DNA from: J061 sp003695725 [NCBI: Candidatus Schekmanbacteria bacterium]
Lineage (GTDB): Bacteria > Schekmanbacteria > GWA2-38-11
NCBI GenBank assembly: GCA_003695725.1
Contig: RFHX01000040.1
Coordinates: forward strand, 1-30,054
DNA: 30,054 bases
Direction: 5' to 3'
Made by a program: the position numbers and the translations under genes. Under the pieces are notes generated by a model. It saw only the letters and a list, made by a program, of their open reading frames with translations. It had not been told where the DNA came from and ran no database searches. Shown here in pieces: positions 25,034-30,054 of this stretch (within the stretch, counting starts at the first letter, position 1; each line of letters starts with the position of its first letter).

Positions 25034-25045
25034 AAGCATCCTTAC

Positions 25046-25073
25046 TTGACAAATCAGAATATTTTATTATTGA
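25046..25073 (+). promoter_or_regulatory. Candidate promoter for the riboswitch transcript
   Basis: A perfect TTGACA (25046-25051) is followed after 16 bases by TATTGA (25068-25073), a weak -10. Its predicted start near 25080-25085 would place the whole aptamer in the transcript, which suits a riboswitch-controlled gene. Confidence 0.4.
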
Positions 25074-25110
25074 TTAGATAATTGAGAAATTGAGTTAATT
25101 TTTTTTCGAA

Positions 25111-25180
25111 AAAGGTAAACCCTGTGGAAGCAGGGGGCACAAAGCCAACGGGTCCAGGAGGGACGGCCGGGTTGCCGAAA
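25111..25180 (+). ncRNA. Cyclic di-GMP-I (GEMM) riboswitch aptamer
   Basis: The segment has the conserved GEMM parts in order: GGTAAACC (25114-25121), P2 hairpin CCCTGT/GCAGGG (25120-25125 with 25130-25135) capped by a GGAA tetraloop of the GNRA class, the joining strand CACAAAGCCA (25138-25147), a P3 hairpin (25149-25155 with 25161-25169) containing the GG bulge expected of a tetraloop receptor, and GGGTTGCC (25169-25176) closing P1 against the first strand. The position equivalent to G20 of the Vibrio Vc2 aptamer is G, favouring c-di-GMP over the A20 type that binds cyclic AMP-GMP. It precedes a terminator and the gene at 25266, so it is a cis-acting transcriptional switch. Confidence 0.9.
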
Positions 25181-25195
25181 AAAAGAGATAACAGT

Positions 25196-25232
25196 ACCTC
25201 TTTCTCGGTAAATCCGGGAAAGAGGTTTTTTT
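25196..25232 (+). terminator. Riboswitch expression platform: intrinsic terminator
   Basis: Positions 25196-25208 pair with 25214-25226 through about 13 pairs (one U-G) around the loop TAAAT, followed by seven T (25226-25232). The 3' arm (AATCCGG, 25211-25217) can alternatively pair with CCGGGTT (25167-25173) of the aptamer P3/P1 strand, and CGG 25206-25208 with CCG 25175-25177. Ligand-bound aptamer and antiterminator therefore compete. The simplest reading is an OFF switch, with c-di-GMP favouring termination. Confidence 0.85.
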
Positions 25233-25265
25233 ATATATTTTTTTAAATTTAAAAGGAGGAAAAAA

Positions 25266-27113
25266 ATGAAAAACCAAAGCAAAAAAATTCTGACATTTTT
25301 TTTAATTTTAACAATTTTTGCTTTTCTGCCAAATTTTAGCAAAGCAAAGGCAATAAAGAAAGCCTCCATTGTTCCTTCAAAGGCGAAAATACAAGCAAGC
25401 AAAAAAATAGATTTAAAATTTGTCGTTAAATCAAAAGGGAAGGTAAAGAAAGGAGCCCTTTGGTATGTCAACGGTCTTTTAGGTGGAAATGATGCAGTGG
25501 GAACGATAACCTCGAAAAAAGGCGGAAGAAAAGCTGTATATGAAGCTCCTGACCTTCCTCCGAATCCATCAACAGTAATTATAAGAGCTGAGAGCAAGGA
25601 AGATTCTTCAAAAACGGCTACTGCAAAGATTATCATCAAAGATAAGAAGATAAAGAAGAAGAGTGCAAAAATAAAGGGTGTTGCTGCAACAGGATTGCCG
25701 ATTGCAGGAGCGCCGGTTGAAGTAATAAACAGCATTGGGGAAATCGTAGGAAATGATACAACAGAAAACGATGGTTCTTATCTTGTCAAAATCAAGAAGA
25801 AAAAATATGAACCTCCCTTCCTTGTGAAAGTGACACCTGAAGGTGAAAAACCGTTATATAGTATTGCTTCAGGAGATTCAAAGATTGCAAATGTAACACC
25901 TTTAACTGACAAGGCAGTCGAAAGTTTTATTGTCAAGAATGGTGGCAGTGTAAGCGATGATGATTATTCGGATGATATCAAGAAGATAAAGGAAACTGTT
26001 GCTGATTTCGACGGAGAGTTTGAAAAAGCAAAGGATGCTTTAGAGAAAGCTTTGGGCATTGATACTCTCAACATTGATTTTGTAAAGTCAAAATTAGATC
26101 CTGAAGATCCTGAAAATGACTATGAAAAGATCTTGGAAACTATAAAAGATTCAATCGAAGCGTCAGGTAAGAATGACATTGATGACCTTATTAAGGTAGA
26201 TGATGATTTTATTGATGTAAATAATGATATAATTCTTCTCTATAAGGACAAAGGGATATTAAGCGATGATAAGATTCCTGAAGATTTTTCGGAAGACGAA
26301 CTTCCAAAGATAGAAGGAGTAATCACCAATCCTCTGACAGTTACAGATACTACTACTATCACGGGAACAGTAATTGTCACAAATACTATAACGGTGAATG
26401 ACATTGACATAATTGTCAGTGATACTGCGAAAATCGTGATCAAGGATGCCAATGGCAATAAAACAGATGGAAGCTTTTCAGATTTGTCTGCAGGCAAGTT
26501 TGTAGAAGTCAAATATTATATTGATGGGGACCTCTTCTATGCAACAGAAATAGAAGTTAAAAATAAGAAAAAGAGCGAGAATGAGGATGATTTGAATGGG
26601 CTGATTACACAAAAGAATGAAATTGCCAAATCAATAGTTGTAGATGGCAAAGCGATTTTCATAAACAATGACACTGAAATCAGGGTTAATGATAGTATAG
26701 CTAGCTTTTCAGATTTGGCTATCGGACAAAAAGTGGAAGTTGATGTCCTCTTGACAGATAACAAACTTGTTGCCACAAAAATTAAAGTCGAGAGCCAGGA
26801 AAGTGAAGACGAAAAAGATGCCGAAGAAGTAAAGGGGATTATTGACAAAATTATAAAATCAAACAACGAAATAGTTGTTGATGGAATTGTTATTGCAATA
26901 ACCCCTGATACGAAGATAGAAATTAATGACACATTGGGTTCATTTTCAGACCTCAGCGCAGGGCAATTCGTGAATATGAAAACAGTTTTTATCAATGGGA
27001 AACTTTCTGCCCTTAAAGTAGAAGTTAAAAATGAAGAAGAGGGAAACAACAATAATGGCGGAAATGACGGTAATGAGAATGATAATGGAGATGGTAATGA
27101 TAATAATCTATAG
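25266..27113 (+). CDS. Exported Ig-like/DUF5666 repeat protein under c-di-GMP riboswitch control
   Basis: The 615-residue protein begins with a signal peptide (basic KNQSKK, hydrophobic core to about residue 23, cleavage probably near SKAKA). A bacterial Ig-like domain follows (about 32-125), with LWYVNGLLGG and YEAPDLPPNPSTVIIRAES. Next are a carboxypeptidase-regulatory-like unit (about 137-192, GLPIAGAPVEVIN with NDGSYLVKI), an acidic helical region (about 215-345), and three DUF5666-type beta repeats (about 349-433, 444-510, 522-590), each with SFSDL(S/A)xGxxVxV. The tail (593-615) is almost all Asn, Gly and Asp. GGAGG lies upstream of ATG 25266. The export signal, repeats and c-di-GMP control suggest a surface or matrix protein linked to the switch between motile and attached states. 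No catalytic residues are seen. Confidence 0.85.
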   Translation: MKNQSKKILTFFLILTIFAFLPNFSKAKAIKKASIVPSKAKIQASKKIDLKFVVKSKGKVKKGALWYVNGLLGGNDAVGTITSKKGGRKAVYEAPDLPPNPSTVIIRAESKEDSSKTATAKIIIKDKKIKKKSAKIKGVAATGLPIAGAPVEVINSIGEIVGNDTTENDGSYLVKIKKKKYEPPFLVKVTPEGEKPLYSIASGDSKIANVTPLTDKAVESFIVKNGGSVSDDDYSDDIKKIKETVADFDGEFEKAKDALEKALGIDTLNIDFVKSKLDPEDPENDYEKILETIKDSIEASGKNDIDDLIKVDDDFIDVNNDIILLYKDKGILSDDKIPEDFSEDELPKIEGVITNPLTVTDTTTITGTVIVTNTITVNDIDIIVSDTAKIVIKDANGNKTDGSFSDLSAGKFVEVKYYIDGDLFYATEIEVKNKKKSENEDDLNGLITQKNEIAKSIVVDGKAIFINNDTEIRVNDSIASFSDLAIGQKVEVDVLLTDNKLVATKIKVESQESEDEKDAEEVKGIIDKIIKSNNEIVVDGIVIAITPDTKIEINDTLGSFSDLSAGQFVNMKTVFINGKLSALKVEVKNEEEGNNNNGGNDGNENDNGDGNDNNL

Positions 27114-27297: not shown

Positions 27298-27789
27298 ATG
27301 AAACTGCCTTCACCCCCGCCAACTCCAGTTGAAGAAAGATGGAAAAGGTTATGTCAAGCATTAGCAGCAGAAAGGATAAATCTTTATTTTGATTTGAAAA
27401 AAATACTTGGCGATGAAAAGGGAGAAGAAGTTTTTAAGAAACTTTATGACGAAGGAATAAAAAGAATAAGAAAAAATTTCCCGGGAGGAAAATTACCAGT
27501 TGGGGAGTTGATGAGAAGAGAGTTGACAAGCTTTCCTATGTTGGGATTTGAATTGACTATTGATGAAGTTGAGGAAGATGGTGAAACAACATATTACGAG
27601 CATCTTACAAAATGCCCCTTTCTCGATATGGCACGCAAGATGAATACTCCTGAGATACCCTGCGATTTTTTATGCAACTATGATGTTGAGCTTGCAATAA
27701 AAGATAAGAGAGGAAGATGGGAAATAATATCACGAATGGGCGACGGCGCAGAGGAATGTGTTTTCAAAATCAGGGAATGGAAGGAATAA
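27298..27789 (+). CDS. Cysteine-motif protein, possibly ATC-hydrolase-like (paralogue 1)
   Basis: The 163-residue soluble protein has no signal peptide. Its N-terminal half is helical (LCQALAAERINLYFDLKKILG). The C-terminal half carries a cysteine pattern: YEHLTKCPF, then CDFLCNYD, then EECVFKI near the end. The arrangement CP - C-x3-C-x2-D - C-x-F resembles the L-2-amino-thiazoline-4-carboxylate hydrolase-like family, but I recall that family only in outline. Several of its members have no known activity, so the name is tentative. GGGAGG lies ten bases or less before ATG 27298. The next gene, 44 bases on, is a divergent paralogue with the same motifs, so this is a tandem duplication. A terminator lies about 100 bases upstream, so the pair probably has its own promoter. 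Confidence 0.75.
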   Translation: MKLPSPPPTPVEERWKRLCQALAAERINLYFDLKKILGDEKGEEVFKKLYDEGIKRIRKNFPGGKLPVGELMRRELTSFPMLGFELTIDEVEEDGETTYYEHLTKCPFLDMARKMNTPEIPCDFLCNYDVELAIKDKRGRWEIISRMGDGAEECVFKIREWKE

Positions 27790-27833
27790 TTTGTTTGAAG
27801 CCAAAAACTTTTTATTAATCTGAGGGAAAGGAA

Positions 27834-28313
27834 ATGGAAAAGATAATTGGTAAAGATTTCCCATGGGAACAACAAAGAGAAATGCTCATTGAAAGATGTT
27901 CTTTGAAACTTCCGCTTCTTTATAAGAATCTTGTAGCTGCTTATGGTGAAGAAAAGGCAATGGAAGTTTATGACAGGGTCTATGAAGCAAATTTTAAGAG
28001 TCGATTGGGGAAACTTAAAGGTATGGATTTAGGAGATATAATGAGACTGGAGGTTCAGATGTTTCCCGCAATGGGATGGAAAATCTGGATTGAGGAGAAA
28101 GAAGAGGATGATGGTCCTGCGTGGTATGAACATTTAGAATATTGCCCTCATTGGGAAGCGACAAAAAAACATAAGCTTCCGGAGCCCTGTAACATTGTTT
28201 GCGATATGGATTGCAAATACGGAGAAAAATATAAAATAGGGAAATGGGAAAGACTGAAACATATGCCTTCAGGCGACAGTGAATGTTGTTTTAAGATAAA
28301 GAAAGCTGAATAG
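27834..28313 (+). CDS. Cysteine-motif protein, paralogue of the preceding gene (paralogue 2)
   Basis: This 159-residue protein shares the full layout of its neighbour: a helical front (LIERCSLKLPLLYKNLV), the middle GDIMRLEVQMFPAMGWKIWIEE matching GELMRRELTSFPMLGFELTIDE, then WYEHLEYCPH, CNIVCDMD and ECCFKI. The shared residues, including four aligned cysteines and the aspartate, are the ones most likely to be functional, perhaps a metal site or a nucleophile. Paralogue 2 has extra cysteines in CDMDC and ECC. GAGGGAAAGGA lies just before ATG 27834. The stop at 28313 is six bases from the stop of the convergent HD-GYP gene. Function is unknown; the comparison with ATC hydrolase-like proteins is tentative. 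Confidence 0.72.
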   Translation: MEKIIGKDFPWEQQREMLIERCSLKLPLLYKNLVAAYGEEKAMEVYDRVYEANFKSRLGKLKGMDLGDIMRLEVQMFPAMGWKIWIEEKEEDDGPAWYEHLEYCPHWEATKKHKLPEPCNIVCDMDCKYGEKYKIGKWERLKHMPSGDSECCFKIKKAE

Positions 28314-28319
28314 TTTAAG

Positions 28320-30054
28320 TCATATAATCTTTTTGAATTTGTAATCTTTTACCGATTCGTAAACTTTTGCGTCGATAAATAACCTGACCAAATAAAGGTC
28401 GAGCTTTTTATCCTTTGCCTCATTTAGAAGAATATCTAATGCCTTATCCACAACAACTGCTTTTTTGTAAGGCCTGTCAGCCGCAGTAAGAGCATCATAA
28501 ATGTCTGAGATTGTAATTAGTCGTGATTGAAAGGGTATTTGCCTGTAATTGATTCCTCGCGGATAACCGCCGCCGTCTAATTTTTCGTGATGGCTGTATG
28601 CTATATCTGGAATTCCTTTCAATTCCTTTGTCCACGGGATTTTACTCAAAAAATTGAAGGTATGAGTTACATGGGATTCAATCTCTTTTCTTTCTTCTTC
28701 AGTGAGCGAACCTTTCTTGATGCTCAAAAAATGGAATTCTCTTTCTGATAAGATTGTGGTTTCCTTACCATCTGCACCTACATATTTTTTGTTCACCAAT
28801 TTAGCCAGTTCTGCTGAATTTTCTTCTGGAAGTATTGTAGGTTCATCTGCTTGTTTTATGAGATTAAAATAATAGTCTAATTGTTCAATGTCTTTTTGCA
28901 TCTTATAATTGATTCTATTAATGAAATCCGATTCTGTTTTATTCGGATTTTTTTTGAAAAATTCCGCCTTTCTTTCTGCATAATCTTTTTCTATTGATTT
29001 TTTTATGTAGTCAAAACGTTGTTTGATGATTTCAATTTCGAGTGGATAGAGTTTTTTAGCCTTTACAAGAACATTTTCTCGTACTCCAACTTTGCCAAAG
29101 TCGTGTAAAAGCGTAGCATATCTAAGCTCTTTGATTTCGTCATCACTGAAGTAGATGTCTTTATATTTCCCCCTGTCCAAGTTGTTTATTATTTCTGCAA
29201 GACGGACCGTAAGAATAGCAACTCTTTCTGAATGACCCGAAGTCGTAGGGTCTCGTTGTTCAATGGCTGTAACGGAAGCTTTCACGAAGCCTTCAAAAAG
29301 GTTTTCAATATTTTTATATAGAACATTGTTTTCTATTGATATAGCTGCTTGGCTTGCAAGGGAGTTTACTACTTCCTGACATTCCTTTGAGAAGGGGATG
29401 ACTTCTCTTTTAATGATTTCGGGTCTCAACAATTTTTTTTTGAAATCTCTTTTTCGGTTAATGAGTTGCAGTACCCCTGTTATTTCATCTAAATGATTTT
29501 TCATCGGCACAACTATCATTGATTTTGTTCTATAACCCGTTTTTTCATCAAAACTTTTGTTGAAGGAATAGGGCGAATTGTGATGAATGGAATAAACATC
29601 TTTTATATTGAGCGCTTTGCCTGTGACAGCCACATATCCGGCAAGACTTTCCTTGTTGAGAGGCAATTTTTGGTCTAAAACACTTTCCAAGGAAAGTGTG
29701 TCATTTTGGGCAAGTTTAAAACGAAGAAAGCTTTTTCCATTTTTCTTTTCTACAAGGTATAGGCTTCCAGCATCGGCTGATGATATTTCTCTGCATTTTT
29801 TTAATATAAGCGTTAATAGTTTGTCATAATTTCTTTCAGAAGAAAGTGCAGCGCCAATCTTATTTACTGCTTTAAAGTTTTGTTCGAGTTCTCGATACTT
29901 CTTCTGAAGATGATGGTTTTTTTCTCTTAAAAGAATATTCGAAATAGCATTGTCTATAATCCTTTCTATAATTTCTTCTCGAAATGGCTCCGGCAAGATA
30001 TAATCAAAAGGCTGAATAAACGATGGTTCTGCCTTTTTTACCAATTTCTTTTCA
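28320..30054 (-). CDS. GAF/HD-GYP domain protein, probable c-di-GMP phosphodiesterase (5' end may lie outside window)
   Basis: Numbering from TTG 30044 gives 574 residues; the frame stays open to the window edge, so the true start may lie beyond it. A coiled N-terminus (about 20-60) leads to a GAF sensor (about 60-235: SSADAGSLYLVEKK, SMIVVPMKN) and then an HD-GYP domain with HSERVA at 271, HD at 314-315 (LLHDFGKVGV), H458, HHEKLDGGGYPRG (485-497) and SDIYDALTAADRPY (513-526). HD-GYP proteins hydrolyse c-di-GMP to pGpG or GMP. The distance from HD to GYP is about 170 residues instead of about 65, because of an extra charged segment (about 345-445). All visible metal-ligand motifs are kept, so activity is likely. 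The gene converges on the cysteine-motif pair and lies about 1.2 kb from the end of the riboswitch-controlled gene. Confidence 0.88.
   Translation of the reverse strand, partial: EKKLVKKAEPSFIQPFDYILPEPFREEIIERIIDNAISNILLREKNHHLQKKYRELEQNFKAVNKIGAALSSERNYDKLLTLILKKCREISSADAGSLYLVEKKNGKSFLRFKLAQNDTLSLESVLDQKLPLNKESLAGYVAVTGKALNIKDVYSIHHNSPYSFNKSFDEKTGYRTKSMIVVPMKNHLDEITGVLQLINRKRDFKKKLLRPEIIKREVIPFSKECQEVVNSLASQAAISIENNVLYKNIENLFEGFVKASVTAIEQRDPTTSGHSERVAILTVRLAEIINNLDRGKYKDIYFSDDEIKELRYATLLHDFGKVGVRENVLVKAKKLYPLEIEIIKQRFDYIKKSIEKDYAERKAEFFKKNPNKTESDFINRINYKMQKDIEQLDYYFNLIKQADEPTILPEENSAELAKLVNKKYVGADGKETTILSEREFHFLSIKKGSLTEEERKEIESHVTHTFNFLSKIPWTKELKGIPDIAYSHHEKLDGGGYPRGINYRQIPFQSRLITISDIYDALTAADRPYKKAVVVDKALDILLNEAKDKKLDLYLVRLFIDAKVYESVKDYKFKKII

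Follow-up and report, generated by a model that had tools for sequence, protein, structure and literature searches.

The closest described systems are riboswitches of the c-di-GMP-I class. In the portions available to us of the papers cited here, G20, A47 and C92 are named as contacts of c-di-GMP (PMC3764141, PMC4744006), an A at position 20 marks the c-AMP-GMP type (PMC9481103), and the C22-G45 pair beside the ligand stack is described as highly conserved (PMC3764141). Regulation of either sign is described in the same portions: the Vc1 riboswitch of V. cholerae, upstream of gbpA, acts positively (PMC4744006), and class I riboswitches of C. difficile act as OFF switches (PMC11477304). We name aptamer positions after the numbering of PMC3764141. 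The principle is already known; what is new in the present case is its location in an uncultured phylum and the gene it is attached to.

The window is the whole stretch of 30,054 nucleotides from Candidatus Schekmanbacteria that was analysed, and its positions are used throughout. We propose that one element in it (Table 1) is a c-di-GMP-I riboswitch which would act as a transcriptional OFF switch, and we put the probability of this reading at roughly 0.8. Covariance models of c-di-GMP-I-GGC (RF03167; 60.6 bits at 25105-25180 on the plus strand, gathering score 59, E 3.7e-12 in the window search) and of c-di-GMP-I (RF01051; 59.8 bits at 25104-25179, gathering score 35, E 3.7e-11 in the source genome) both match end to end with scores less than 1 bit apart, and this aptamer is the sole match over gathering in the covariance search of the window. 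The first-pass annotation had recognized a GEMM-I aptamer here, and the RF01051 score, well over gathering, bears it out; the proposed start at 25109 has to be moved, since the 5´ strand of P1 begins at 25100 in the fold. Judged by these matches, 25105-25180 is a real aptamer of c-di-GMP-I type.

The ligand pocket can be read base by base. G20, A47 and C92 correspond to G25114, A25141 and C25175, the trio canonical for c-di-GMP, and both the G at the ligand-discriminating position and the GGAA tetraloop that had been noted before are present. C44 is C25138, and the alignment places a G within the two-base bulge of P3 (25165-25166), the C44-G83 contact in space lying beyond the reach of an alignment. 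The real oddity of the window aptamer, as its bases read, is a compensated change, U25116-A25139 in place of C22-G45; the earlier description, correct as to the parts of the aptamer, had passed over it. The same U22-A45 pair occurs in three of the seven other aptamers of the phylum (G003:C4, G003:C9 and G002:C144, given by genome and contig). It is not peculiar to the phylum, because a scan of public genomes for the U-A pattern returned 106 aptamer matches in 104 stretches.

Table 1. Positions of the features discussed in the text (window coordinates, unless a locus is named)
Feature	Position	Strand	Basis or remark
P1 5´ strand, UUUUUUUCG	25100..25108	+	pairs 25176-25184; folds of 25095-25190 and 25095-25233
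c-di-GMP-I (GEMM-I) aptamer, full-length model match	25105..25180	+	RF03167 and RF01051 covariance models
Position 20 = G (c-di-GMP type)	25114	+	base reading; meaning of position from PMC9481103, PMC3764141
Position 22 = U, pairing A25139 (position 45), replacing C22-G45	25116	+	base reading
GNRA tetraloop GGAA of P2	25126..25129	+	RF03167 alignment, base reading
Position 47 = A (canonical); RF03167 consensus has G	25141	+	RF03167 alignment, base reading
P3 3´ strand = putative outer antiterminator strand	25167..25173	+	CCGGGUU with AAUCCGG 25211-25217; alignment, fold
Putative middle antiterminator strand	25174..25178	+	GCCGA with UCGGU 25205-25209; fold
P1 3´ strand, CGAAAAAAA	25176..25184	+	pairs 25100-25108; fold
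Putative inner antiterminator strand	25182..25187	+	AAAGAG with CUCUUU 25198-25203; fold
Intrinsic terminator hairpin, 13 pairs, T-run behind	25196..25226	+	arms 25196-25208/25214-25226; terminator scan, fold
Gene under predicted control; 615-aa product (signal-like N-terminus, N-terminal module of Ig-like type, DUF5666 in three stretches)	25266..27113	+	
Crp-type regulator genes	L122 2924-3643; L126 3899-4570		cNMP_binding + HTH_Crp_2 matches
GGVAxCxGCH-protein loci	L026, L051, L057, L064, L073, L095, L106		
GFTLVE-motif loci	L015, L017, L030, L031, L037, L043, L068, L075, L093, L098		

A terminator hairpin follows the aptamer. The terminator scan alone proves little, because it found 2 such sites against 0.8 expected in shuffles. 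In nearest-neighbour folds, a model in which ligand, tertiary contacts and kinetics lie outside, the competing structure is one hairpin of 7+5+6 pairs, where 25167-25178 and 25182-25187 pair with 25198-25217. The pairing of CCGGGTT with AATCCGG and the further pairing of 25175-25177 with 25206-25208, both pointed out before, can be read directly from the sequence, and for a transcript that ends at 25218 the minimum-energy fold contains them. A second antiterminator had been offered as the basis of an ON switch, AAAGAG with CTCTTT; it makes up the apex of this one hairpin, and in the folding model all three pairings are parts of one structure. The middle strand takes in C92 as well as C93, which is C25176 of P1.

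The order of these states was followed in a folding series, with base-pair probabilities and state energies computed for transcripts of growing length. The probability of P1 falls from 0.86 at length 25202 through 0.41 (25206) to 0.04 (25210); the antiterminator holds 0.94-1.0 for lengths 25210 to 25222; the terminator state is best from 25224 and reaches probability 1.0 from 25226. At length 25218 the antiterminator state beats the P1 state by 6.8 kcal/mol, and at 25228 it is beaten in turn by the terminator state, by 5.1 kcal/mol. The fold misses part of the aptamer, as it draws 25136-25138 against 25144-25146 and gives the P3 pair 25150-25168 only about 0.45. Explanations by a promoter or by the minus strand were discarded, since the promoter scan returned no promoter-like pair on the plus strand of the gap between upstream gene and aptamer (25034-25104), where a TTGACA at 25046 stands without a good second hexamer. 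This negative outcome of the scan also counts against the riboswitch reading.

Two kinds of shuffle control were applied to the window and to the five terminator-bearing relatives from the phylum, G002:C135, G003:C4, G002:C122, G003:C9 and G003:C3. When the order of pairs in the terminator stem was reshuffled (1000 times for the window, 300 times for each relative), the antiterminator advantage of the window was matched by 1/1000 stems at length 25218 and by 49/1000 at 25212. Just before the 3´ arm of the terminator is complete, the free fold is better than the P1-forced fold in all five relatives; shuffled stems were as strong in 2/300 cases for G003:C4, 1/300 for G003:C3, 3/300 for G002:C122, 56/300 for G002:C135 and 210/300 for G003:C9. 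The second control tested the duplex of the aptamer 3´ end with the terminator 5´ arm, either arms or aptamer ends being shuffled 1000 times. With arms shuffled, the strength of the natural duplex was reached in 5 cases for the window, 1 for G003:C4, none for G003:C3, 53 for G002:C122, 223 for G002:C135 and 256 for G003:C9, the last two not significant. Shuffled aptamer ends equalled the natural ones in 31 cases for the window, 1 for G003:C4, 13 for G003:C3, 111 for G002:C135, 132 for G002:C122 and 139 for G003:C9. By these computations the layout is common to all six elements and strong in four of them; it is weak in G002:C135 and indistinguishable from chance in G003:C9. The outer helix recurs in G002:C122 as CCGGGUU with AACCCGG.

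We suggest the following mechanism. While no ligand is bound, the P3 3´ strand, C92 and the P1 3´ strand at the downstream end of the aptamer, together with AAAGAG, would pair with the terminator; its 5´ arm, its loop and the first bases of its 3´ arm would be captured in one long antiterminator hairpin, and RNA polymerase would read on into the DUF5666 gene. Bound c-di-GMP would hold P1 and P3 and leave the 5´ arm free; the terminator would then form and transcription would stop near 25227-25233. Because the P3 3´ strand, C92, C93 and a large part of the P1 3´ strand go into the antiterminator, this hairpin should exclude the ligand-bound aptamer, and since the two exclude each other, ligand should favour the terminator and switch the gene off. 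The aptamer match, the pocket bases, the exclusive helices, the stability order along the transcript and the layout of relatives are all computed. Binding of c-di-GMP, the sign in the cell and the effect on the protein are what we infer. The OFF sign predicted by the first-pass annotation agrees with the aptamer match, the folding series, the shuffle controls, the relatives´ layout and the pocket bases.

The controlled gene was previously taken for a putative adhesion protein. In its product, Pfam identifies DUF5666 in three stretches (78.7 bits against a cut-off of 27); a match to Big_6 stays below threshold, and there is no known adhesin domain. For want of a supporting domain we do not keep the adhesin identity. 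In the four phylum genomes, DUF5666 is above cut-off in three proteins (that of the window, on G000:C40, and those of G002:C122 and G003:C3), and in each case the gene is the next one behind an aptamer. Three of eight DUF5666 matches lie below cut-off, namely G001:C29, G003:C4 and the first repeat of the window protein itself; the matches in G001:C29 and G003:C4 have no aptamer beside them. The window protein is 47% identical to that of G003:C3 over 463 columns, and the aptamer of G002:C122 drives an orthologue of the window protein. Two further proteins, that of G002:C135 and the one encoded behind the aptamer of G003:C9 (match 46077-46394), share the Ig-like module at the N-terminus (WYVN..LGGN..VGTI, PPNP), so that five of the eight phylum aptamers precede genes with this module; it occurs elsewhere without aptamer, for example in G002:C58, G003:C15 and G000:C304.

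A search of 98 genomes for orthologues gave a match in 6; two of these lie outside the phylum (G076, G015) and matched only weakly, so that no orthologue was seen there. A profile from six DUF5666 stretches and the window protein´s N-terminal module, run with E limits of 0.01 and 0.001, matched nothing in six-frame translations of 104 loci, which were picked by the U-A pattern, measure at most 8 kb each and provide no general test of the association. In literature outside most subscription journals, we found nothing linking either DUF5666 or Schekmanbacteria with a riboswitch. As to the neighbourhood, the upstream gene in the window codes for a Prismane-family (Hcp-like) protein, and two genes in tandem at 27298-28313 code for proteins of the ATC_hydrolase family (PF14196). 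In G002 and G003, a gene for a Crp-type regulator lies just upstream of aptamer and DUF5666 gene.

In favour of the riboswitch reading, the source genome has seven GGDEF matches, and in five of them a sequence pattern search found the catalytic and base-binding motifs intact; the pattern was not found in L149 and L152. At 28320-30053 the window codes for a GAF-HD protein whose HHE..DGGGYP and HD motifs are of the HD-GYP kind. In the GGDEF protein of L139 (G001:C1), GS replaces GD in the base-recognition stretch, a change which we take to be that of Hypr-type enzymes; G001 is without a c-di-GMP-I aptamer.

Altogether, c-di-GMP-I aptamers are present in three of the four Candidatus Schekmanbacteria genomes examined, eight in number. 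The second one of the source genome, on contig C116 (L002 1487-1577, minus strand), scores 73.2 bits with RF01051 and 53.9 bits with RF03167. It has no ORF of at least 70 aa behind it on its strand, is followed by a short SD-ATG reading frame, and is divergent from the neighbouring gene, presumably chloride-channel-like. The G003:C4 aptamer precedes prepilin-type genes. That of G002:C144 (L009 1501-1577) has A20, is of c-AMP-GMP type and stands before a CXXCH haem protein; in its fold the P1 5´ strand UCCUCC pairs with GGAGGA of the ribosome-binding site, and by this model it would be a translational ON switch. Among the 106 U-A-pattern aptamers, seven (3 A20, 4 G20) precede proteins with GGVAxCxGCH near the N-terminus, which we assume to be OmcS-like. 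Because both A20 and G20 occur before such genes, the same kind of gene may answer two signals. In ten others, all of them G20, the ORF that follows carries a prepilin-like GFTLVE motif.

Judged by its pocket, the window aptamer most likely senses c-di-GMP. The same architecture might instead bind another cyclic dinucleotide, either as a GGC-type variant or with a specificity shifted by U22-A45 together with G43, which we consider improbable. The top Rfam label, c-di-GMP-I-GGC, points that way, yet the two models nearly tie and the conserved G of RF03167, presumably the source of the variant´s name, faces A25141 despite the 60.6 bits. For this reason we do not file the window aptamer as GGC. 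The RF03167 gathering score is passed by five of the eight phylum aptamers, and every one of the eight has A47; the label is thus a near tie settled by background similarity over a canonical pocket. In the portions of literature examined, the GGC name is used only for a model or template. The U-A pair does lie at a highly conserved site beside the ligand stack (PMC3764141, in the portion available), and the phylum´s only A20 aptamer likewise has U22-A45, but the window has G25114 where the c-AMP-GMP type has A, and 93 of the 106 U-A-pattern aptamers have G20 as well (13 have A20). A wider form of the idea, that the U22-A45/G43 aptamers found in the phylum form a subclass whose ligand preference is shifted (other cyclic dinucleotide or dual) and which controls secreted Ig-like/DUF5666 proteins oppositely to classical adhesins, seems to us similarly far-fetched.

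With regard to the sign, ligand might lower termination through some other pairing and give an ON switch, of which Vc1 is a known class I example (PMC4744006, in the portion available). We find this quite unlikely: the antiterminator is built from the very strands that the aptamer needs once ligand is bound, the OFF layout is common to relatives, and the AAAGAG/CTCTTT helix proposed for an ON switch is part of the OFF antiterminator. That helix was rejected as an ON device, as 25182-25184 belong also to P1 and it would be lost when ligand holds P1. Nor is the OFF sign exceptional, since class I riboswitches of C. difficile are also OFF by the available text (PMC11477304); to call it unusual, as was done before, is an overstatement. 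Finally, aptamer and terminator may switch little or not at all, for instance if folding is too fast or the antiterminator comes too late. The lead of the antiterminator is confined to polymerase positions of about 25210-25222, and two of the five relatives do not rise above their shuffles; conservation of the layout and the strong advantage of the window element and of three relatives make this very improbable, and the OFF switch driven by c-di-GMP remains our preferred reading.

At this locus of an uncultured phylum, the predicted OFF mechanism of a c-di-GMP riboswitch can be read from the sequence. The locus also ties an unstudied secreted protein family, with DUF5666 and Ig-like modules, to c-di-GMP. 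If the predicted sign is true, the DUF5666 protein would be made at low c-di-GMP. The Rfam label c-di-GMP-I-GGC can fall on aptamers with canonical pockets, which calls for caution in automated annotation.

Compared with known systems, the element shares with RF01051 the full-length match over gathering, the GNRA tetraloop, G20/A47/C92, C44 and an expression platform of terminator type; it differs in the U-A pair for C22-G45, in G instead of A at position 43, and in its single long antiterminator, predicted to reuse the P3 3´ strand, C92 and the P1 3´ strand. It passes the gathering score of RF03167 by 1.6 bits, but has A where that model conserves a G in the A47 column. With c-AMP-GMP (GEMM-Ib) riboswitches, one of which is present in a related genome (G002:C144, A20), it has the fold in common and not the base at position 20, which is G in the window. 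Class I riboswitches of C. difficile (flgB type) are turned off transcriptionally by c-di-GMP according to the available part of the source (PMC11477304), as is predicted for the window; the likeness is one of description, and phylum and genes are different.
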